Assembly (NCBI GenBank): GCA_903871875.1
Contig: CAIQIR010000039.1
Location: 1 to 64,000 of the forward strand
Direction: 5' to 3'
Origin: an uncultured Schlesneria sp.
GTDB taxonomy: Bacteria > Planctomycetota > Planctomycetia > Planctomycetales > Planctomycetaceae
DNA length: 64,000 bases
Below are positions 538 to 9,484 of this stretch, piece by piece. The position numbers were made by a program, and so were the translations under genes. Each line of letters opens with the position of its first letter. The stretch's first letter is position 1. The notes under the pieces are model-generated. The model did no database searches and was not told where the DNA came from. It saw only the letters and a program-made list of their open reading frames with translations.

Positions 538-1224
538 TCAGAAGGATTTAAGATCCCCGGCCCCAGCGACTTCTCCGGATTCCGTCGCGTGCCAGAATTC
601 CCCGAGGTGAACTTCCATCGCGGTCAGAATTCCCCCCAATCCACAACCAGTGTCGATACAGCAGTAATGCCCGGCATCTCGGACTAGTCCAGGTGTGTGC
701 CCCAGAATGACTTTCTTCCCGGAAATGTGGGCCTTGGGCTGTTGGTTCTCAAGGGAATACCAACGCAGAAGTGAGGAATCCTGCTGATTCATCGGATCGT
801 ACCAGCAGTAGTTGGCATGAGTGAAGATAAAATCATCGGTTTCGAAGTAGGGCACGAAGCTGGAGAGAAAATCCCAGTGTGCATTGGGAACATTGGTGAC
901 ATCCTCTGGTTCACCATATGACTTCAGCGTGGCCTCACCTCCTTGAGACTTCCACCTGCCCAGAGCAGATGGATCATTCCTGCCATCGAGCATCATTTCA
1001 TCGTGATTCCCGAGAATTGAAACCAGCTCGCATGACTGCCTGAGTTCCATCAAACAATCCAGGACTTCCCGGCTATCAGGTCCTCGATTCACGCAGTCAC
1101 CCAATGTCACGATGGTGTCATCCGGTGTAGGCTGGATTTGATCCAGTAATCCCCGTAAAGCCTTAACGTGCCCATGAATGTCACCGATTGCAATCAGCCG
1201 TTGGCGTATTCTTCCTCTTCGCAT
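538..1224 (-). CDS. PPP-family metallophosphatase (Ap4A hydrolase / Ser-Thr phosphatase type)
   Basis: A 228-residue single-domain calcineurin-like phosphoesterase. The PPP signatures are in order: GDIHG (14-18), GDCVNRG (42-48, the family's GDxVDRG with Asn in place of the second Asp) and GNHD (72-75). The later metal-binding histidines are seen in IFTHANY and VILGHTPG. Family members dephosphorylate phosphoproteins or cleave diadenosine tetraphosphate; phage lambda carries a comparable enzyme, so a place on a mobile element is not surprising. The length fits the bacterial/phage PPP group. Substrate cannot be decided from sequence. The gene lies 84 bp downstream of the DUF932 gene on the same strand. 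The Asp-to-Asn change falls at a position normally near the active site and may tune activity or specificity. Confidence 0.85.
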   Translation of the reverse strand: MRRGRIRQRLIAIGDIHGHVKALRGLLDQIQPTPDDTIVTLGDCVNRGPDSREVLDCLMELRQSCELVSILGNHDEMMLDGRNDPSALGRWKSQGGEATLKSYGEPEDVTNVPNAHWDFLSSFVPYFETDDFIFTHANYCWYDPMNQQDSSLLRWYSLENQQPKAHISGKKVILGHTPGLVRDAGHYCCIDTGCGLGGILTAMEVHLGEFWHATESGEVAGAGDLKSF

Positions 1225-1308: not shown

Positions 1309-2286
1309 TTAAGTCGCCATCTCCAATGCCAGATCCCACGCTCGTTCCTTCAGCCGGGCACCTGAGCCAAACCATGCCGATTCCAAACGATTACTGGCTT
1401 TGTCTGATGAAGTCTTTCCGCGTGTTGATCGGTAGTGGTCCACATATTCCGTGACCGCGTTCAAAGCTGTCCAGGTCGTATGACGTATTGCTGGCATGTC
1501 ATGACCAATCCCTTCTTCGAAGAGTCTCAGCATCTCTTGCCTGACGTTTGTCGTTCTGGAAGATTCTCCTTCCGGGGAGTCCGGGTAAACATGGAGGAAA
1601 TACTGTTCTAGTTGACGCAGGCTCGGGTAGTGATTGGCGAGACGGTTAATTTGTTCCTCGGTGTCATCGTAAAACCGATTTGCCAATCCCAGGACTACTT
1701 GAGCCTGCTGGACCTTTGTCGCAAGGTCACCTTTGTGAATGATTGAAATCCCTTGTCCTCGTCCATTCCTGGCTGCTATCGCCAGGGTATTGGAGCAGAC
1801 CACCCGGATTGGTGTGAAGTACACTCTCAGGGATGAAGATCCATCGTGGGAATTGGACAACAGCAGATATTTCTCTGTGATGTCATCTGAGTTCTTCACC
1901 CGGATCTCATCTGGAAGTTTTGCCAGCATCCATACACGTTCCCCTTTTCCCAGGGCTCCGGCAGTGTGATACCGAAGCTCCCCATCAGATACCACGGCGT
2001 CCAGGAATCCAAAGGCTTGGTGGTTCTGGACCGGAACGTAGCTCGTTCCAACCACTCCTAGGATTTCCCGGGAATCAGACCTGACCACTGCTTTCCGTTG
2101 AGGGATTGGAATACCTTCTGTGGTTTGGAGGTTGTTAAGCTCAGCCAGGTAATCCAATCCTGCGGCTTCGATGGCTTCCCGAGCTGTTGCAGGCTCTTCG
2201 AGTCGGGTGCCCAGTCCGTGCCAGGGGATTTCCCCGGCAAACATCATAGCGGTGTGACCGATGGTCGTCGCTAGTTCGTGTGGCAT
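1309..2286 (-). CDS. DUF932 (phage/plasmid-related, TIGR03299-type) protein
   Basis: This protein matches the DUF932 family by its opening, with the typical PWHGLG motif after a short MPHEL...TIGHTAMMFAGE segment, followed by an 'A...EAIEAAGLDY' helix and a conserved 'VVCSNTL' near the middle. The family is found mainly on phages, plasmids and islands, and its biochemical role is unknown; links to DNA replication or recombination have been suggested from context. I place the start at ATG 2286 because GGAG lies 8 nt upstream; a TTG two codons earlier is the alternative. The length (325 residues) is normal for the family. It sits between the phosphatase and the restriction-modification genes, all in the same direction. 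Confidence 0.8.
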   Translation of the reverse strand: MPHELATTIGHTAMMFAGEIPWHGLGTRLEEPATAREAIEAAGLDYLAELNNLQTTEGIPIPQRKAVVRSDSREILGVVGTSYVPVQNHQAFGFLDAVVSDGELRYHTAGALGKGERVWMLAKLPDEIRVKNSDDITEKYLLLSNSHDGSSSLRVYFTPIRVVCSNTLAIAARNGRGQGISIIHKGDLATKVQQAQVVLGLANRFYDDTEEQINRLANHYPSLRQLEQYFLHVYPDSPEGESSRTTNVRQEMLRLFEEGIGHDMPAIRHTTWTALNAVTEYVDHYRSTRGKTSSDKASNRLESAWFGSGARLKERAWDLALEMAT

Positions 2287-2388
2287 CGTCAAATCTCCAA
2301 GGGATACGTGTTGTTCACGCCATTACTACCCTTGAAGGCATGCCTATGCTCTCATTTCAGCCGGGCCACCTGTATGACCTCAGTTGTC

Positions 2389-3096
2389 TCACTGAAAGGC
2401 TGAACCGCCACTGGGATCCATTGGCAAACTTTTTGATTGGCCAATCTTGCTTAAGAACGTCTCGATTCCGGACAGAAGGCTTTCTCTCGTTGGTGTTTTT
2501 CCCTTGCACTTATTTGCCCAGGTTCGACCTGGATGCACAACATCCCAGTCGGATTTTGATTGCTCGTATCGTCCTTTACCAGGGTCGTGGTTTCCAAAGC
2601 CGTCAAGGAAGCTGTTCCATAGGGGCTTCTTCCATTTAATCACTGAAGCTTCAAGCGTTCCGATCATGTCAGAGCTTGGTCCATCAAAGATCATGAAACG
2701 ACAGGAGAAGTCTTCTATCGCAAGGCTGTCAACCTTGTTTATGCTGCTCGCGTGTTGGCTTAACCGAGAGTAAAGCTCAGGTGATGGTTTGTCATCGGTC
2801 TGCTCGGCCCTCGACTGTCTCCATCCTTTCGGAACTGCTTTTCCCAAGTAGATCGGGAAGTCATAGGCCAGCCGGTTAAGCTCTGCATACTTGAAGTAGG
2901 GTTCAGCTTGACCAGTGTAGTAAAGAGCGTAAATACCACTGCCGTGGAATCTCTCAGGTGGTGGTAGTGGATGAACTGGAGTGCCGTTAAAGAAGCGTAT
3001 GGCGTCTTTAATTAGTTCAACGAAAGCATCGTTTTTGTAAACATGCTTAGTCCGGTCAAAAGGCTCCCTTGTCGGAGCTGGTGCCTTCTTAGCCAT
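2389..3096 (-). CDS. Eco29kI-family type II restriction endonuclease (GIY-YIG nuclease)
   Basis: The 235-residue protein resembles R.Eco29kI, a GIY-YIG nuclease cutting CCGCGG. Counting from the TTG two codons before my chosen ATG, the GIY half is GSGIYALYY (55-63) and the YIG half is the variant PIYLGK (83-88). Candidate catalytic residues follow in the family order: Arg113, His117 (SRLSQH), Glu151 (GTLEAS) and Asn163 (LWNSFLDGFGNH). The overlap with the upstream methyltransferase gene (8 nt, ATG at 3096 before the methylase stop at 3089) delays nuclease synthesis relative to methylase if the two are coupled, a sensible order for a restriction-modification pair. All key residues appear present, so the enzyme is probably active. 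The CCGCGG specificity is inferred from family resemblance. Confidence 0.88.
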   Translation of the reverse strand: MAKKAPAPTREPFDRTKHVYKNDAFVELIKDAIRFFNGTPVHPLPPPERFHGSGIYALYYTGQAEPYFKYAELNRLAYDFPIYLGKAVPKGWRQSRAEQTDDKPSPELYSRLSQHASSINKVDSLAIEDFSCRFMIFDGPSSDMIGTLEASVIKWKKPLWNSFLDGFGNHDPGKGRYEQSKSDWDVVHPGRTWANKCKGKTPTRESLLSGIETFLSKIGQSKSLPMDPSGGSAFQ

Positions 3097-4276
3097 GAGC
3101 AACGACTTTCCGCTCTGAAAGCAGTCGATGTAATTCCTTGGCTACTACTTCACACATCTGGACCGGCACAGCGTTTCCTAACTGCCTCATGGATTCTGTC
3201 CATGACCCCTGAAATGTCCAGTCGTCCGGGAATGTTTGAATTCGGGCACACTCACGTACGCTAAAATAGCGTACTGTTCCGTCTTCAAATCGGAGAGTGT
3301 TTTCGCCGCCAGGTACTCCGTGGTCGCCAGCTTTCAGTGCTTTTGCTGGCTCATCGTATGGACTACCTGTGTGCCCCGCATACGACCGTGCTCCTGGGTT
3401 GCAGAAATGATTTGCAAACTTAGAACATGATTCTCCTGGAGCTATGTCAGGAAGGTCTGAAATCGCATCCCGAACTGTCCGCCACGCGGGAAGTAACATC
3501 CCCGGAAAAAGTGAGCCCAGGTTACGAACTCGCTTCTTGATTCGGATTGGAACAGAAGGTCTTTTCTTCTTCGGAATCCTGTGACGTTCCCAGTATTCTC
3601 CTGTGACCCACATGTCATGCAGCAGGCCATCCTGTTCATGGGTCTGTTGAGGGAAGGAAAACTGAAGCTTCAGGTCTGAGCGGATTCCAACAATGAGAAC
3701 GCGGTGCCGGTGTTGCGGGACTCCATAGTCTGCTGCATCCATCAATTGGTAAATGACATTGTACCTTAACCCTGATTCGCTGCCTTTTGTGACGGCCTTC
3801 TCGAGACGTGCTAAATGGTCTGTCCACTCCTCGTCACCCTTGCGGGTCATCTGAGGATAGGCCAGCTGATGAATGATGTACTGATAGTAGTTGGCGAAGT
3901 TGTCACGAAGGAGGCCTTTCACATTTTCAAAGATGAACGCTTTGGGGGCTATCTCTCGAACAGCCCTAATGGCGTGGGGAAACATGTTTCGCTTGTCGTC
4001 CATCCCAGCATGTTTGCCACCGATGGAGAATGGCTGGCAGGGAGGGCCGCCTGAGACGAGATCAATTCCTCCGGCATATTGCCTGAAGTCAAAACCACTG
4101 ATGTCGCCTTCAACGATCAGGGTGTCCTTAAGCTGGGATAGCCCATCGGCTTTGTTCTGACGCAAGGTCTCACAGGCATTGGGGTTCCACTCCAAGACGG
4201 CCTTGTGATGAAAGCCTGCGTTGGCGGTTGCTAGGGCTAGTCCGCCCGCTCCTGCAAATAGTTCGATTGATTTCAT
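3089..4276 (-). CDS. DNA (cytosine-5) methyltransferase of the Eco29kI-type system
   Basis: A 395-residue C5-methyltransferase, the protective partner of the adjacent endonuclease. Motif I is FAGAGGLALA (7-16), the catalytic Cys is Cys80 in GGPPCQPFS (77-84), motif VI is FENVKG (116-121) and motif VIII is QHRHRVLIVG. The target-recognition region lies between about residues 210 and 310, and motifs IX-X close the protein (RECARIQTFPDDW, QLGNAVPV). The length is usual for monospecific m5C methyltransferases. The enzyme would methylate a cytosine in the sequence cut by the endonuclease. The start ATG at 4276 lies only 45 bp after the upstream unknown gene, so the pair could be read from a longer transcript or a weak local promoter. 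I see no controller (C) protein in the system. Confidence 0.93.
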   Translation of the reverse strand: MKSIELFAGAGGLALATANAGFHHKAVLEWNPNACETLRQNKADGLSQLKDTLIVEGDISGFDFRQYAGGIDLVSGGPPCQPFSIGGKHAGMDDKRNMFPHAIRAVREIAPKAFIFENVKGLLRDNFANYYQYIIHQLAYPQMTRKGDEEWTDHLARLEKAVTKGSESGLRYNVIYQLMDAADYGVPQHRHRVLIVGIRSDLKLQFSFPQQTHEQDGLLHDMWVTGEYWERHRIPKKKRPSVPIRIKKRVRNLGSLFPGMLLPAWRTVRDAISDLPDIAPGESCSKFANHFCNPGARSYAGHTGSPYDEPAKALKAGDHGVPGGENTLRFEDGTVRYFSVRECARIQTFPDDWTFQGSWTESMRQLGNAVPVQMCEVVAKELHRLLSERKVVAHG

Positions 4277-4321: not shown

Positions 4322-4918
4322 TCAAGGGATTGATCGTCGATCCGGATTTGGAGTTGATCTCCAGGGGAGCTCCCACTCGTGTCCGGATACCACGCCTTGA
4401 GCCGTTCGCGGAAAGACGGTCTCACCTGAACTGTTGTCATGATCTTTCGTTCCTCTCGATCGGCTTGCTTTGTCAGGTTGTTCGTTCTTCAGGGCTAGGT
4501 GAGAATTGATATCCGCTTCCATTGATTTCCAGTCGTGAGGGGTGATCAGGTGGCCATTGACCAGCAGCACTCCGTTATGACTCAGTTGGCGAGTCATGTA
4601 ATCAGACCTCCTGGCGAATTGTCGACGGTACTTGTTCTTCAGGGTTTTGTTCATTGCCCTGATCCAGTCTCGTTGGCATCTTCGAGCCTCCCAGGAGAAC
4701 TCCGGTGAAAACTCTGAACTCTCCACCGTGAATTCCGGATTCAGGTAAATGCACCAACCATCAGGCTGCGGTCTCAGCTTCAGTATTCGACCCCTCGTAA
4801 CCTCAGCTAAATCATTCCACATTTCGTCGTGGACTTGGTGCTTCCGCACCAAGACACGCTTCCTGCGAACGCAGCACCGCTTCTGTTCAGGAGTTGCTTC
4901 GAGGTTTTTCATTTTCAT
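4322..4918 (-). CDS. Hypothetical basic protein, island cargo
   Basis: A 198-residue protein that I do not recognise. It is strongly basic, with Arg/Lys runs at the N-terminus (CCVRRKRVLVRK) and middle (LKNKYRRQFARRSDY), four Trp in the first 125 residues and a polar, probably disordered tail from about residue 140. The middle part (STLE-like beta then WEARRCQRDWIRAMNK) suggests a small nucleic-acid-binding fold, but that is only composition. Its ATG overlaps the stop of the preceding gene (4915-4918, ATGA), so the two are translationally coupled and probably work together. It sits just upstream of the methyltransferase gene. The low-complexity tail may be extended by frame drift, but the stop position gives no sign of a frameshift. 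Confidence 0.6.
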   Translation of the reverse strand: MKMKNLEATPEQKRCCVRRKRVLVRKHQVHDEMWNDLAEVTRGRILKLRPQPDGWCIYLNPEFTVESSEFSPEFSWEARRCQRDWIRAMNKTLKNKYRRQFARRSDYMTRQLSHNGVLLVNGHLITPHDWKSMEADINSHLALKNEQPDKASRSRGTKDHDNSSGETVFPRTAQGVVSGHEWELPWRSTPNPDRRSIP

Positions 4919-5178
4919 GAGTGGATGTCCTGTTTCGGTAAGAGCCCGGCGGACTCATGCAGGGACGGTGTCGATAACGTGAACTGTTCCTGAAGGACTT
5001 GGTACAGGTAATCTGACCAGTCCATGCAGTTGAGAGACGCCTGAGCATGAATTTTGTAGTACAGCCAGTCAGGAATGATGGCTTGGATCGACTTGCAGCC
5101 AGGTGGCAGCTTGCCGTTGACCCTTCTGGGTGCCCGTGTCGCCGGAGGCGACTTGGATTGATTGAGAGTCTTCGTCAT
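4915..5178 (-). CDS. Small hypothetical protein with possible ribbon-helix-helix-like domain
   Basis: I start this 87-residue protein at ATG 5178, which has AAGGCG six bases upstream; the frame is open 22 codons further but without a good start. After a basic N-terminus (residues 1-25) comes a segment reading IQAIIPDWLYYKIHAQASLN and then CMDWSDYLYQVLQEQF. A strand followed by two helices with this spacing is what ribbon-helix-helix DNA-binding proteins of plasmids and toxin-antitoxin systems look like, but I cannot confirm it. The stop overlaps the start of the next gene by four bases (ATGA). Function unknown; regulation of the downstream genes is one possibility. Confidence 0.5.
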   Translation of the reverse strand: MTKTLNQSKSPPATRAPRRVNGKLPPGCKSIQAIIPDWLYYKIHAQASLNCMDWSDYLYQVLQEQFTLSTPSLHESAGLLPKQDIHS

Positions 5179-5381
5179 TTTGTTTCGCCTTGAACTGAGC
5201 CAATGGCCGTCACACCAGAGATTTGATGGGGTCCGAAGGACCATTCCATTCGTCTGCTGTGGTGCCCTGGCATAGTTAATGTTTTCAGTAATCTCATACC
5301 TTTGCCTTTTCTATTCATATCCTGTGTTTGAAAGTACTTTTCCTGTGTCATGTCCATGCTTTTACTTGTCTTGATTATGCT

Positions 5382-5735
5382 TCATTTTAATTTGCTTCTA
5401 ATTCCTTTACTTTCACTTCTACCTCTAAATCTAAATCTACCTTTTTCTCTCGTTCTAACTATTTCTCCGCTTGGTTTTCTGCCGTATTGGGGTGGTTGTT
5501 CACCACGCTCGTCATCCTGTTGAGCTCCGCTACCAGCTCCTGCCAGCTGATGGTTTGTCACGATCACGGATCTATCGCGTCTGCCATTTCTACCTTGGCA
5601 TCGATTGCATAACTTTCTGACAATTATGTCTTTTCTGCATTGTCTGCATCGTCTGAATTCGCCTGACTGACGCTGCACGGTCAATGAGACGAATCGCTCC
5701 AATAATACGAATGGCCCTGGCCAAGGCGGTTCCAC
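5382..5735 (-). CDS. Possible small C4 zinc-ribbon protein
   Basis: This 117-residue frame begins with GTG at 5735, 52 bp after the ATPase stop, in the same direction. Its recognisable element is CRQC-x7-CNRC (residues about 30-46), a compact four-cysteine zinc site, followed by a long Arg/Gly/Glu-rich tail. A zinc knuckle plus basic tail would bind nucleic acid. The codon use is odd and the start is weak (no clear Shine-Dalgarno), so the frame could be fortuitous. If real, it would be the fourth gene of the ATPase module. Between this ORF and the gene ending at 5178 there is only AT-rich sequence (5179-5381) in which I see no convincing gene. Confidence 0.35.
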   Translation of the reverse strand: MEPPWPGPFVLLERFVSLTVQRQSGEFRRCRQCRKDIIVRKLCNRCQGRNGRRDRSVIVTNHQLAGAGSGAQQDDERGEQPPQYGRKPSGEIVRTREKGRFRFRGRSESKGIRSKLK

Positions 5736-5787
5736 ACCACCGAGACCAGGGCCGTCATTACAATGACCGAACAGGTAGCCAGCTCGC

Positions 5788-6531
5788 TCAAATGCCGAGC
5801 ATGTCCTTCACCATGGTTTTAGTCAGGGTTCGATCCCGCTCATCGGCAGCAGCCGCGTGGGCTTTGATTCCGAATCGGAAGCTCTTGCCGGACTGCTTGA
5901 CCATGAACTTGACGACATCTTGTGTAGCCAGGACCTTCCAGTCATCACTCATCCTCTCAAAAAACTCGACCATCTCCTCCTCTTCGGGTGGGCTGACCTG
6001 AACGACCTCGAACCTCTCCCGAAGGGGTGGGATCACTTCTTTGAGGCGATCTTCCATGATCGCTGCTATCAGAAGTCCGTCGAAGTCCTCCACGAACTTA
6101 AGCATCGGCTCCTGGGAGAGCTTTTCGTGCAGGTGATGGAGTTCGTCCATGAATAGCACGACATCGTCATCGAACCGATGTTCGTCCAGAATTTCGATGA
6201 GTTGGGTTCGGTTTGGAGTAGTGCAGTCGTACTCGAACCGTCGGTAGGGTTCCCCGTAGCCTTGGTAATATTTGCCGAAACATCGGCACCACATGCAGTC
6301 CCCGCAGGGGTCGGCGGTCGTCGGGTTTCGACTCTGGCAGCACAGGGACTTGAGCAGCAGACGGACGATACTGGTCTTTCCATATCCGTAGATCCCTGCC
6401 AGCAGCAGCGGGCTCGGGAGCCGCCCTTCGATTAGTGTCCGTTGGAGTCGCCCAAGGCGTCTCTGATTGACGGCACCGACAACGTCCGAGAATCTGGACG
6501 GTCTCCATTTTCTGATATCTTCCGAATCCAT
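5788..6531 (-). CDS. Miniature DnaX-like AAA+ clamp-loader ATPase
   Basis: A 247-residue AAA+ ATPase built like the motor of the DNA polymerase III gamma/tau subunit but ending soon after the lid domain. From ATG 6531: the N-terminal KWRPSRFSDVVG box (8-19), Walker A GIYGYGKTS (46-54), the DnaX-type zinc cysteines C64 and C76-x2-C79-x2-C82, Walker B VVLFMDELHH (124-133), and RERFEVVQV, where an arginine finger/sensor region is expected. Cellular DnaX proteins are 2-3 times longer and carry collar and polymerase-binding domains, which are absent here. Phage clamp loaders and transposition/replication ATPases use the same core. It probably acts as an oligomeric DNA-remodelling or loader ATPase for the element. 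The next gene upstream is the 416-residue unknown; 114 bp of repeat-rich DNA separates them. Confidence 0.8.
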   Translation of the reverse strand: MDSEDIRKWRPSRFSDVVGAVNQRRLGRLQRTLIEGRLPSPLLLAGIYGYGKTSIVRLLLKSLCCQSRNPTTADPCGDCMWCRCFGKYYQGYGEPYRRFEYDCTTPNRTQLIEILDEHRFDDDVVLFMDELHHLHEKLSQEPMLKFVEDFDGLLIAAIMEDRLKEVIPPLRERFEVVQVSPPEEEEMVEFFERMSDDWKVLATQDVVKFMVKQSGKSFRFGIKAHAAAADERDRTLTKTMVKDMLGI

Positions 6532-6552
6532 AAGATTTCTTTCTGTGTTAAT

Positions 6553-6644
6553 GGGCAACCAGGGCATTCGAATTGCCCAAGGGGTTGCGTGACAGTGAGT
6601 TTTGTCTGCCCACGCCTACGGGCAGACAGCGGGCATATAGGGCA
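6553..6644. repeat. Cluster of seven GGGCA/TGCCC motifs with a 9-bp hairpin
   Basis: The pentamer GGGCA or its complement TGCCC occurs at 6553, 6562, 6574, 6607, 6620, 6631 and 6640, all within the 114 bp between two genes. Two of the copies form a perfect 9-bp stem (TGTCTGCCC 6603-6611 with GGGCAGACA 6620-6628, 8-nt loop). Others form shorter inverted pairs, such as 6562-6578. On the minus strand this DNA lies immediately upstream of the ATPase gene. Such a density suggests operator or iteron-like binding sites, or an attenuating RNA structure. No U-tract follows the hairpin on the minus strand, so a classical terminator is less likely. Confidence 0.5.
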
Positions 6645-6645
6645 A

Positions 6646-7896
6646 TCAGGTCAATTGGTATCTGGCTTCCACCTCCTTCGGGTCTGGGAGGTTGCTGAAG
6701 GGGGATCGTCCTTGAATCAGTTCTTCGGGGAGTACGTATTCGATTGCAGCGTTACCGCACGTCTTTCGGATCTCTATCAGGCCTTCTGAAAGAAGTCGGT
6801 CGAAGCGAGTTCGAACCATCTTGTAGGTCCAACTGGGCAATGATTTCAGGAGTTCAGAAACTTCTGGCTGCCGTACCCGCGATGAATCTTGGGCACGAAT
6901 ACCGATCTGTTTAAGAACGCCTCGTTGGTCTGTTTGCACCAGCGTTTCTACAAGTTCCTTGGTGATGTCACTTCTCGCGTTGCCCAGGTCAACCAATTCT
7001 CTTCGAGTGATGGGGCGGGATCGGTGCTGATTCGTTGGATCGACCGCTTGCAAAGTACTCGTGTTTCCAGTTCTGCCAGCCAGTGGAGTTGGTTTGTTTT
7101 GGGCGGAGCCAGAAATGGATTTAATGTAGGCATTCGCCCTCGCAATCATTTGAAGGGTGAGGTCGTCATGTGGATGATCGACCAACCGAAATAAGCGGAG
7201 ATTTAGCAGTCGGTGGGTCTCTGCGTAGTGTTCTGGACGGGCTACAACGAAACCTCCGTGATTCATTTCTTGGAACGCTTCTTTTATGGTCACTCCTTTA
7301 AGGATTCCCATAAAGATCTGGGTGTCACGGACTGAGAGTCGTAGGCCTTTTGCGGCTGCAAGCCGAATCGATTGCCACAGGTGACTCGTGTCAATTGAGA
7401 GGTTGTTGATCAAATCCTCATCGGTCAGTGGAGCTAATGCTGAGAATTTGCCTTTTGCGAGCCACTTGCTCAGGTCGCTGAATGTTTGGTCGTCGCCTTG
7501 AGCGACCAATGTGGCCCCTGGGGTTTCTGGGCTATTCCGGTGGTGGATTGATAGAACTGCCGGTAGCGGTTGACTGCTGGCGTGGCGGATTGTGATCATC
7601 CAGTCCAGAATATTTGATGATAAAACCCCTCCATGGCTGGGGTAGACCAGGACAACGCGAGTCACTTGAAGCTTGCTTCGAAGTTGTCGAATGTCGGCTT
7701 GAGTCCATACTTCCACCACGTGTTCTGGTTTCAGTGATTGAGCCACCCCCCTCCATAGTCCGCCCACCAGATCGGGCGGGAAGTCTCGCAAGGCCACCGA
7801 AACCGGTAAACCCACGATGCCCCCCAGGATTCCATATTGAATAAGGTCGACGAGGGCTGGACTCTCCGGCATCGTTTCAGGAACGGATCGACTCAT
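6646..7896 (-). CDS. Hypothetical 416-residue protein with probable C-terminal winged helix
   Basis: I do not recognise a family. The N-terminal 130 residues look like an alpha/beta domain (alternating hydrophobic strands such as TRVVLVYPSHGGV and LPAVLSIHHR), with a hint of a nucleotide-binding or ATPase-like fold but no Walker A motif. The middle (150-250) is helical, and residues about 260-300 are a polar linker. The C-terminal 100 residues (TRRELVDLGNARSDITKELV, then WTYKMVRTRFDRLLSEGLIEI) read like two helix-turn-helix or winged-helix units. The start ATG overlaps the stop of the small HTH gene (ATGA at 7893-7896), so the two are translationally coupled. Placement between the HTH gene and the clamp-loader-like ATPase suggests a replication, partition or regulatory role for the element. 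Confidence 0.6.
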   Translation of the reverse strand: MSRSVPETMPESPALVDLIQYGILGGIVGLPVSVALRDFPPDLVGGLWRGVAQSLKPEHVVEVWTQADIRQLRSKLQVTRVVLVYPSHGGVLSSNILDWMITIRHASSQPLPAVLSIHHRNSPETPGATLVAQGDDQTFSDLSKWLAKGKFSALAPLTDEDLINNLSIDTSHLWQSIRLAAAKGLRLSVRDTQIFMGILKGVTIKEAFQEMNHGGFVVARPEHYAETHRLLNLRLFRLVDHPHDDLTLQMIARANAYIKSISGSAQNKPTPLAGRTGNTSTLQAVDPTNQHRSRPITRRELVDLGNARSDITKELVETLVQTDQRGVLKQIGIRAQDSSRVRQPEVSELLKSLPSWTYKMVRTRFDRLLSEGLIEIRKTCGNAAIEYVLPEELIQGRSPFSNLPDPKEVEARYQLT

Positions 7897-8219
7897 TGCT
7901 GATCTTTCCCACCGTGATTGAAACGCAGGGCGGCAAGAAGATCATTTCTTGTGTAAACGAACTTTCGTCCTATTTTTTGTGCTTTGATGGCCCCAGAGAG
8001 TCTGAGATCGCGTAATACGTGTCGCCCGACCCCACACGCTTGGGCTGCTTCAGCTTCATCAAGGGCAATTCGCCCAGCGGGCCAATCTAAAGCAGAAAAG
8101 GCTTCCCGCAGCACCTCCTCAACGAGTTCTCGGAGTAGAGTGCGGTCAAACGTCAACTGAACGGCCGCTGGGTTATGAGAGCCGCCGCTATCGGGAACCT
8201 GAATTGAACAACGTGCCAT
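7893..8219 (-). CDS. Small excisionase-like HTH (MerR-type) DNA-binding protein
   Basis: A 108-residue protein whose C-terminal half (about residues 50-105) carries the helix-turn-helix_17 pattern of excisionases and plasmid regulators: an Asp/Glu-Ala-Ala stretch (LDEAEAAQACGVGRHVLRDL), then LSGAIKAQKIGRKFVYTRNDLLAAL, the typical wing with the GRKFVY-type strand. The N-terminal 35 residues are probably flexible; residues 30-45 form a helix (LLRELVEEVLREAF). ATG 8219 is chosen because GGAGG sits seven bases upstream; the frame stays open 13 codons further. The downstream gene overlaps by four bases. As with other Xis-like proteins, it could steer excision of the element or repress transcription. 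Its Shine-Dalgarno lies in a hairpin (8226-8246). Confidence 0.7.
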   Translation of the reverse strand: MARCSIQVPDSGGSHNPAAVQLTFDRTLLRELVEEVLREAFSALDWPAGRIALDEAEAAQACGVGRHVLRDLRLSGAIKAQKIGRKFVYTRNDLLAALRFNHGGKDQQ

Positions 8220-8225
8220 CGAAGA

Positions 8226-8246
8226 CCTCCAACGTTTTGTTGGAGG
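8226..8246 (-). promoter_or_regulatory. Inverted repeat covering the ribosome-binding site of the HTH gene
   Basis: CCTCCAAC (8226-8233) and GTTGGAGG (8239-8246) form a perfect 8-bp inverted repeat with a 5-nt loop. In the minus-strand mRNA the arm nearer the start codon contains the GGAGG Shine-Dalgarno of the gene starting at 8219, and the other arm is its complement. The hairpin would therefore hide the ribosome-binding site. Alternatively the DNA palindrome could be an operator for the encoded HTH protein (autoregulation). Both readings are inferences. Confidence 0.55.
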
Positions 8247-8313
8247 GGATTGTCTCAATGGTCACTTGCTGGAGACTTACCGTTTGGAAAGTTCTTTGAA
8301 ATCCGTCATGTCT

Positions 8314-9279
8314 TCACTCAGCAAGATCAGTTGTGATAATGACCGCGAGGTCACGGAAGGAGATAGACACTGGAATTCCCGCACCCGCCAGTTTTTTACC
8401 TAACTTGCATGCACAACTCTGGACCGTTGCTTTCGTAGTGTTTGGTGCTTCCTCCCATGCCTCGTCGATTATGTACTGAACGTCCCGATATTTGTTCTGC
8501 TGTTTCCATAGTGCTTTGATGAGCTTGAATTCCTGTCGCGAGAGCTCAACGTGTACTCCGTTCCAATAAAAATCCCCCGCCACTCCAGGTCCATCTTCGG
8601 GTGGAACTTCTGATTCGGAACAGTCCTTGTATTGGAAGCAGAATTCCACTGCTTGCTGAAGCAAAGTCAGTGTGCGTTGATTGGCTGTCAGCTTCAACCA
8701 ATTGTTCTCGACTTTCTCAGTAAACCAGAGAGGCTCGGTCCAAAGCTGGTGGGAAAAGCCAGCTGAGTATCCGTACTTTTTTGGGTTGGTAGCGGCCGCA
8801 CACCACCAAAGAAGACGTGCTCCTAATACATGAGGTCCACCAACAAGGGTCTCGTACTCGAAATTACTGAGAGGCGGATGATGTGGCGTAAATCCCGGTT
8901 GAAACTCAATTTTCGGGGAAGGACGTTCGTGAGTCGTCGCCTTCTTCAGTGCTGCACGTGTACCCAAAATTGACTGCTTACCAATCTTGGTAAGTTCTTC
9001 CACGAAACGATCGCAGGAATCGATGAGTCTGTTGAATTCGTCTAAATTCCGCATCATCGCCTGGGATCGGAGCCACCGAGATCGCACATATTGTGCTTCT
9101 TCGGGGGAAAGTTTCTTCCGGTGATTTCTCGTTCGAAGATCCCGTAAGTAGACGGCATAATCCTCTTCAACTTTGTCCGTCACACTGAGTGGAACAAAAT
9201 GCCAGACGGCCGTTTTGAAGTTGTCGGCAGCTGCTTCTATTGAGCGACTTTTGTCGGCTCGCTGGGATTTCGGGGGCAT
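8314..9279 (-). CDS. Hypothetical protein with C-terminal winged-helix (OmpR-type) domain
   Basis: The frame is open up to 9534 but the upstream 85 codons run across the tRNA fragment, so I start at ATG 9279 (321 residues). The last 80 residues read like the trans_reg_C winged helix of OmpR-type regulators: a beta strand (WNGVHVELS), the recognition-like helix region RQEFKLIKALWKQQN, then VQYIIDEAWEE, TVQSCACKLGKKLAGAGIPV and a final strand. There is no receiver domain. The central part (about 60-230) is helical with several Trp and no family I can name. Such proteins occur in planctomycete islands. It is the first gene inside the right border of the element; no integrase motif (Arg...HxxR...Tyr, or a serine-recombinase motif) is present. 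Confidence 0.55.
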   Translation of the reverse strand: MPPKSQRADKSRSIEAAADNFKTAVWHFVPLSVTDKVEEDYAVYLRDLRTRNHRKKLSPEEAQYVRSRWLRSQAMMRNLDEFNRLIDSCDRFVEELTKIGKQSILGTRAALKKATTHERPSPKIEFQPGFTPHHPPLSNFEYETLVGGPHVLGARLLWWCAAATNPKKYGYSAGFSHQLWTEPLWFTEKVENNWLKLTANQRTLTLLQQAVEFCFQYKDCSESEVPPEDGPGVAGDFYWNGVHVELSRQEFKLIKALWKQQNKYRDVQYIIDEAWEEAPNTTKATVQSCACKLGKKLAGAGIPVSISFRDLAVIITTDLAE

Positions 9280-9425
9280 TTGGGGGGTTCCATTAGACCC
9301 CGAGAGTTCTACAGAAGTTCTACATTTTTCGCCAACGATGGGCTTTTCTTGGCGACCCTCGGCTATGGGAGACCGCAGAATTTCGCTTGTCTTGTTTCGG
9401 TTCTGTCGCCCAGTGTAGACTCGTT

Positions 9426-9484
9426 CGGGACTTAAAATCCTGTGGAGCGAAAGCTCCGTGCGGGTTCGAGCCCCGCCTCGGCTA
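9426..9484 (+). tRNA. 3' fragment of tRNA-Leu(UAA), probable att site
   Basis: The sequence starts at an anticodon arm: CGGGA (9426-9430), a 7-base loop CTTAAAA with anticodon TAA (9433-9435), and TCCTG. A class II variable arm follows (GGAGC-GAAA-GCTCC, 9444-9457), then a T-arm (GCGGG-TTCGAGC-CCCGC, 9460-9476) and the acceptor 3' strand CTCGGCT plus discriminator A. The 5' acceptor half and a normal D-arm are missing: nothing upstream pairs with CTCGGCT. GTAGAC at 9415-9420 may be a remnant of the D-loop. A tRNA 3' end standing alone at the junction of accessory and chromosomal DNA is the expected attR product of tRNA-targeted integration. It is not a functional tRNA. Confidence 0.88.

Follow-up and report, generated by a model that had tools for sequence, protein, structure and literature searches.

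Genes at the left end of the window

The window analysed here is a stretch of 64,000 nucleotides from an uncultured Schlesneria sp. and forms the start of contig C39. The DNA to the left of a tRNA-Leu gene fragment looks like the end of a defence-gene-carrying integrative element in a tRNA-Leu gene of this planctomycete, with the left end of the element lost at the contig edge. This analysis concerns a group of adjacent minus-strand genes in that element, comprising a mini-DnaX AAA+ ATPase of 259 residues (5788..6567, with a possible internal start at 6531), its partner, a 416-residue protein predicted to be a P-loop-less MCM-like AAA+ protein with a winged-helix tail (6646..7896), an HTH_17 (helix-turn-helix) protein resembling excisionases or regulators (7893..8258), and an outermost gene whose product has a PhoB-type winged-helix C-terminus (8314..9279). 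The initial annotation had described these genes, together with a possible C4 zinc protein, as a replication or regulation module that moves as a set; the four genes proved to be real and to lie where it had placed them.

The mini-DnaX ATPase

By its motifs and profile matches, the 259-residue protein is a DnaX-type AAA+ ATPase ending where the DnaX collar begins. It matches NCBIfam dnaX_nterm (TIGR02397, 4.5e-16) over model positions 6-240 of 355, and because the match stops at position 240, the collar (domain III) is missing. Comparison with host DnaX identifies Walker A (GIYGYGKTS), the Cys4 zinc set, Walker B (FMDE), the arginine-finger Arg, and the sensor-2 Arg, in agreement with the earlier description of a DnaX-like ATPase with a full zinc cysteine set and no collar. 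The closest solved relatives are DnaX gamma/tau (4.8e-28), and phage clamp-loader families also match (PHROG 2.5e-14). The likeness to ATPase domains I-II of gamma/tau thus covers both Walker motifs, the zinc module, the arginine finger, and sensor 2, with a whole-length profile match, whereas the mini-DnaX differs in lacking the collar/oligomerisation domain and the tau extension, in forming a separate branch, and in being element-borne beside an MCM-like gene. In the tree, the mini-ATPases branch apart from host DnaX with support of 97/95 and do not belong to the host chromosomal lineage; host DnaX is encoded elsewhere in the same genome (C74). A plasmid search with the ATPase returned matches mostly annotated as DnaX. 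A Tn7/TniB-like transposition ATPase was considered and rejected, because DnaX gives the best matches and the gene has no transposase linked to it.

These features bear on a reading of the pair as a device for clamp loading or polymerase recruitment, in which the mini-DnaX would join or mimic the host clamp loader and bring the host sliding clamp or Pol III to the element, with the MCM-like protein serving only as a DNA-binding adaptor. The gamma/tau and phage clamp-loader relatives, along with the retained zinc Cys4 and arginine finger, are what such a device might display, but the ATPase is without the collar domain used by clamp-loader subunits to join, no clamp, delta, or delta' gene was recognised in the element loci read, and the constant partner is an MCM-type AAA+ protein, not a clamp. 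On balance this reading is considered unlikely.

The 416-residue partner

The 416-residue protein, initially described as an unknown with a winged-helix tail, keeps that description at the level of family searches: it matched nothing in Pfam, NCBIfam, or PADLOC and gave only a weak tail-completion match in PHROGs (0.027), while its winged-helix tail is backed by homology. In the same searches no ParA/ParB or terminase match appeared, leaving the partition or terminase identity that had been named as one possible refutation of the proposed module without a counterpart. Against PDB sequences, the partner profile returned nothing for the partner, and its P-loop relatives gave chance-level P-loop or unrelated matches only.

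Profile comparison placed the protein. A profile of three partners matched the C-terminal half of a 992-residue toprim primase, and this half, with an intact P-loop, is common to plasmid CHC2/toprim primases and to stand-alone planctomycete proteins of 423-433 residues, which are element proteins located near Rep_trans-like and HTH genes. The family of ten partners matched the P-loop primase-helicase family at E 1.2e-8 over 328 colinear columns, with a score of 72 against 23 or less for scrambled controls. The alignment columns that read SSSAAGKS in the P-loop family read RDFPPDLV in the window protein, and GKS/T is absent in all ten partners (10/10), so that by alignment the partners lack the functional Walker A of an MCM helicase. 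Within the partner family, the window's own subgroup (F1: window, G065, and G554) matched the other partners (F2) at E 1.5e-7 by hhalign; the match was significant across the full length once G554 was added, and the N-terminal half of F1 alone was not significant against F2 with two sequences.

An AlphaFold model of the relative from G142, a second uncultured Schlesneria, was built from 18 sequences (pLDDT 77.7, pTM 0.70). Its best structural matches are MCM AAA+ domains (Z 15.5, with 235 residues aligned at 4.0 A), a result that counts as support and not as independent proof because the alignment contained P-loop relatives. Foldseek with this model returned viral helicase-primase families. 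The profiles and the model identify the partner family as a predicted MCM-like AAA+ domain plus winged helix with Walker A destroyed. Its descent from one half of the primase-helicases of mobile elements, the part with the MCM-like AAA+ domain and winged helix, with Walker A lost, is shown at the level of sequence homology.

The resemblance to MCM helicases lies in the AAA+ core fold and winged-helix tail, by structure for the G142 relative and by profile for the window member. The partner differs from them in having no Walker A and may also lack the MCM N-terminal domain, the OB/zinc domain having given no Pfam match and the protein looking too short ahead of the AAA+ core; its sequence relatives are bacterial element proteins, not archaeal or eukaryotic MCM. 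The CHC2/toprim primase-helicases of plasmids and of elements resembling integrative and conjugative elements (L060, L062-L067) are homologous to it in their C-terminal half; unlike the partner, they keep the P-loop and carry a primase half, and no mini-DnaX was noted beside them. Stand-alone relatives with an intact P-loop were seen at L069 (318-3044), L073 (2-4068), and L076, with a Rep_trans-like gene upstream and HTH and integrase-like genes downstream; these loci apparently represent another small planctomycete element family.

Linkage and distribution of the pair

The partner gene is followed directly by the ATPase gene in 8/8 partner loci with enough downstream sequence, spread over several planctomycete families. 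In seven of them (window, G000:C116, G065, G142, G090, G658, and G554) the ATPase lies at most 143 bp downstream or overlaps, and in the eighth (G622) only its start is visible, about 280 bp downstream, ahead of the contig end. For G580 and G132 the contig breaks off within the partner or shortly beyond it. The neighbourhood comparison suggested in the initial annotation therefore linked the two genes across planctomycete families, and separate distribution was not seen. Its claim of a set moving together stands for these two genes and falls short for the HTH and PhoB-like genes, which accompany the pair in only one other genome, G142, and are elsewhere usually different or absent.

Relatives of the window pair in G065 share 50% (partner) and 75% (ATPase) identity, and the pair is only about 20-24% identical between the window and G142 or G090, partner identity being generally low (about 20%). 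A second, distant cassette of HTH (DUF1580), MCM-like, and mini-DnaX genes occurs in the same genome as the window (G000:C116, L009 2731-6156). It adjoins a serine-recombinase-like open reading frame (ORF), and the same ORF adjoins the G090 cassette (45% identity). No literature was found on DUF1580. The deep split in the partner tree, which separates the window, G065, and G554 from the rest, is compatible with the ATPase tree, in which G554 is weakly placed; the fine topology of both trees is unsure because the branches are long.

The low identity raises the question of whether the MCM-like protein is a degenerating remnant, with the ATPase acting alone, perhaps loading host DnaB in the manner of DnaC/DnaI. 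Walker A is lost in every partner found, and one copy, in G053, is fragmentary. Decay would sit poorly, however, with open frames of 378-417 residues that persist in distant families, with a conserved winged helix and NPF..LP tail, and with a partner always retained beside the ATPase, and this explanation is accordingly held to be very improbable.

Viral contigs contained no relatives of the 416-residue protein, the ATPase, the partner profile, or the PhoB-like protein; plasmids gave no match for the G142 partner, and a GTDB scan with A8 returned the G142 locus only. Several neighbours of the pair were recorded. In G658, a 636-residue protein directly after the pair (L100 4694-6604) carries motifs like those of archaeo-eukaryotic primases (hDhD and SGGxH, by eye), with a weak PHROG primase match (0.015), and in G554 a 562-residue protein upstream of the pair (L101 7707-9395) matches a phage DNA polymerase/primase family (PHROG 2.3e-9). 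A third cassette type, found at L048 (7888-9481), L049 (6642-8270), and L047 (8117-9229), has a variant mini-DnaX beside a different, 257-residue protein; that protein has no meaningful Pfam match, and its C-terminus resembles, by eye, primase winged-helix tails. Right after the pair in G065 lies a remnant (L007 3002-3343) like the C-terminus of the G108 variant mini-DnaX, which suggests that two cassette types once stood side by side.

Exchange in the probable replication slot

The cassette occupies a slot ahead of a conserved backbone gene for a 109-residue protein (4915..5244, minus strand), homologues of which stand in the same place in G142, G108, G113, G136, and G106. In G136 and G113, the slot before the 109-residue gene holds a DUF3854 protein of 958-972 residues, and in G113 the gene ahead of it belongs to the HTH family also found ahead of the partner in G065 and G580. 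Cyanobacterial plasmids are replicated by proteins of the DUF3854 type, one of which, CyRepA2, enables autonomous replication in cyanobacteria (PMC10079941). DUF3854 Rep proteins (CyRepA; PMC10079941) are thus like the pair in position, filling this slot in sister elements between genes of the same HTH and 109-residue families, and differ in being a single protein with toprim-related and P-loop domains and no detected homology to the pair.

Between the slot and the 109-residue gene lies an intergenic stretch just downstream of the cassette (5245..5787, strand not assigned), which is A+T- and purine-rich and is a candidate replication origin or cis site. The corresponding non-coding stretch is kept as DNA, at 67-75%, among G106, G108, G113, G136, and G142 across different cassettes.

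The exchange also bears on the idea that the pair belongs to the defence or regulatory cargo, working as an AAA+ sensor or switch to control expression or to kill infected cells, with no part in replication. Defence genes do lie beside the cassette, namely an Eco29kI restriction-modification system in the window and, in G090, proteins with Mrr and Shedu-type SduA_C domains, and regulatory proteins can have this AAA+ and winged-helix make-up. Yet the pair sits in a backbone slot where sister elements hold a replication-type protein, it stays while the cargo varies, neither protein has a relevant PADLOC match, and relatives of the partner are found within primases, all of which makes a cargo role improbable.

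Proposed function of the pair

At a probability of roughly 60%, the ATPase and the 416-residue protein are two subunits of an exchangeable replication-initiation and helicase-loading cassette of tRNA-Leu-integrating, defence-carrying planctomycete elements. A role of the pair in replication, taken by itself, is quite probable, because the two genes are constantly adjacent, the partner's relatives lie within primase-helicases, and a DUF3854 Rep-type protein replaces the pair in the same slot. To this extent the replication or regulation module around a miniature DnaX put forward in the initial annotation is upheld for the pair, and not for all five genes as one unit.

Several points weigh against this reading. 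No homology could be detected between the DUF3854 proteins and the partner, so the slot exchange is only positional, and the window's candidate origin is similar to the others in composition only, with no DNA similarity. Taken alone, F1 matches the P-loop family at only E 0.0064, the window protein reaching that family via its relatives. The P-loop proteins in the input alignment may have shaped the G142 model, which is in any case the model of a relative, the window protein's own model being poor (pLDDT 47, 5 sequences). No gene of certain priming function was seen in the window's part of the element.

Under the two-subunit cassette reading, the element would excise, and the winged helix of the MCM-like protein would bind the element origin, for which the A+T- and purine-rich stretch is the candidate. 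The dead AAA+ core would form a scaffold or mixed ring, and the mini-DnaX might provide ATP hydrolysis in trans via its arginine finger, opening DNA or loading a helicase or clamp, after which the host, or a separate primase (perhaps in G658), would prime synthesis. The HTH and PhoB-like proteins would control excision and expression at the element end. The central step, in which the mini-DnaX would act in trans to drive the inactive MCM-like protein as a DNA-binding scaffold, is put forward tentatively as a possibility short of even odds. Similarly tentative is the broadest form of the proposal, a bacterial two-subunit replication initiator whose MCM-like ring, itself unable to bind ATP, is driven by a clamp-loader-type ATPase. 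It would be an independently evolved counterpart of loader-plus-MCM systems, moving into and out of a single element backbone where other elements use single-protein Reps.

In the Orc1/Cdc6-MCM and DnaC/DnaI-DnaB loading pairs, a clamp-loader-related AAA+ ATPase acts on a helicase-type partner. The present pair is likened to them by analogy and differs in that its helicase-type partner is the one dead for ATP binding. Both halves have known look-alikes. The open-access literature and libraries searched contained no account of their pairing, of ATP binding lost on the helicase-type side, or of replacement by DUF3854 Reps, which is weak evidence of absence, and the combination, earlier left unmatched to any known phage, plasmid, or transposon family, likewise found no known replicon there. 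The analysis makes a testable replication system out of a gene pair that had been unknown, and describes a replication slot where unrelated initiators replace each other around conserved non-coding DNA. Planctomycetes, for which little was found described, gain a tRNA-Leu integrative element family carrying defence cargo. If the proposed mechanism is true, a separate clamp-loader-type subunit can take over ATP hydrolysis from a helicase-type ring, which would bear on the possible origin of loader-helicase pairs such as Orc1/Cdc6-MCM.

Element boundary and end genes

The right boundary of the element is marked by an att-like 3' fragment of a tRNA-Leu gene (9427..9484, plus strand), a 94% match to tRNA-Leu(TAA) at G000:C62:285-370. 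About 60 bp of non-coding DNA at the boundary is almost identical between the window and G142 elements and contains a direct repeat, TGTAGAACTTCTGTAGAAC (9306..9324, minus strand; 1 match against 0.14 expected by chance), that is kept in G142, and an inverted repeat, TCGCCAA-N13-TTGGCGA (9329..9355, strand not assigned), read from the G142 alignment, which is possibly an att arm, an operator, or a terminator. G142 has the complete arrangement, with about 34 kb from an intact tRNA-Leu(CAA) to its 3' copy; a tyrosine recombinase (integrase) gene (PF00589, 4.7e-25) adjoins the intact gene, and the 3' copy adjoins the PhoB-like gene, the same layout as in the window. The tRNA gene and its 3' copy, which together mark an integrative element, are thus both present in G142, whereas the window holds the 3' copy only, and no integrase gene is visible on its own contig. 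Relaxase or type IV secretion genes are absent from the window part and were not recognised among the G142 ORFs read, no dedicated search having been made.

As the missing left end, C62 is only suggestive, having an intact tRNA-Leu(TAA) with tRNA parts 94% alike. C17 was rejected for this role and belongs elsewhere: its start (L110 3-1698) carries a truncated integrase, a resolvase-like ORF, and tRNA-Ser(GGA), and represents a different integrated element of the same genome. In G090, a tRNA-Leu(CAG) is found some 10 kb to the left of the module, and a 3' copy of it was not found in the stretches read.

The HTH_17 protein has the Xis-like character first proposed for it (Pfam 1.3e-7, weak PHROG excisionase matches). 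Its gene's stop overlaps the start of the 416-residue gene by 4 nt, and a 78% identical copy occupies the same place in G142. The outermost protein was likewise correctly described as a winged-helix protein, with a PhoB-like tail (Trans_reg_C, 1e-6); it is 49% identical in G142 and otherwise had only one weak match in 170 genomes. Both are probably element-end genes controlling excision and expression. The possible C4 zinc protein fared less well, if ORF 5382-5735 is the one meant. This ORF lies in the purine- and A+T-rich intergenic stretch, outside the range 5788-9279 covered by the initial annotation, and its codon-position G+C is 0.51/0.52/0.36 against about 0.60/0.42/0.53 in neighbouring genes. 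No sign of it was seen in relatives, though no search was made with the ORF itself, and by its composition it is probably not a gene.

Backbone and cargo

The elements form a tRNA-Leu-integrating family with a conserved backbone of DUF932, 188-residue, and PDDEXK-nuclease genes and defence cargo. In the window, all on the minus strand, the backbone includes a DUF932/TIGR03299 protein (1309..2292; NCBIfam 1.1e-78; 89% identical in G142, 85% in G090, 49% in G658) and a 188-residue 'MLKVNVGLSRKL' marker protein cut by the contig end (2..409; E 4.1e-63 to the G090 protein). Both are common to the window, G142, and G090 (85-89% and 76-84%), and a PDDEXK_1 nuclease and a 281-residue protein are also backbone in G142, G090, and, more distantly, G658. 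Compared with this backbone identity of 76-89%, the value of about 20-24% for the pair indicates that the pair evolves more quickly than the backbone or is exchanged separately from it. Relatives of the 188-residue marker occur in 30/170 genomes of the order, 19 of them strongly. The order has seven mini-DnaX carriers, three of them with the variant 257-residue partner (G008, G108, and G137), and six of the seven also have the marker (P 5.8e-6, a guide and not an exact value because the carriers were picked by profile search).

Other minus-strand genes are a metallophosphoesterase (538..1224; Pfam 1.3e-12), similar to genes beside DUF932 in G033 and before the 188-residue marker in G079, and a 198-residue protein common to the G090 element (4322..4918; 34% identity, 1.3e-9 to L045 10151-10498). 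The window's cargo is an Eco29kI-type restriction endonuclease (2389..3102; Pfam RE_Eco29kI 9.9e-65) and a C5 cytosine methyltransferase (3089..4276; Pfam 3e-64; PADLOC MTase_II 9.6e-133). In G142, the cargo consists of type I restriction-modification-like genes, along with a 1349-residue protein (L046 2608-6657) with HTH, AAA, and a weak TnsD-like match, a possible defence gene.

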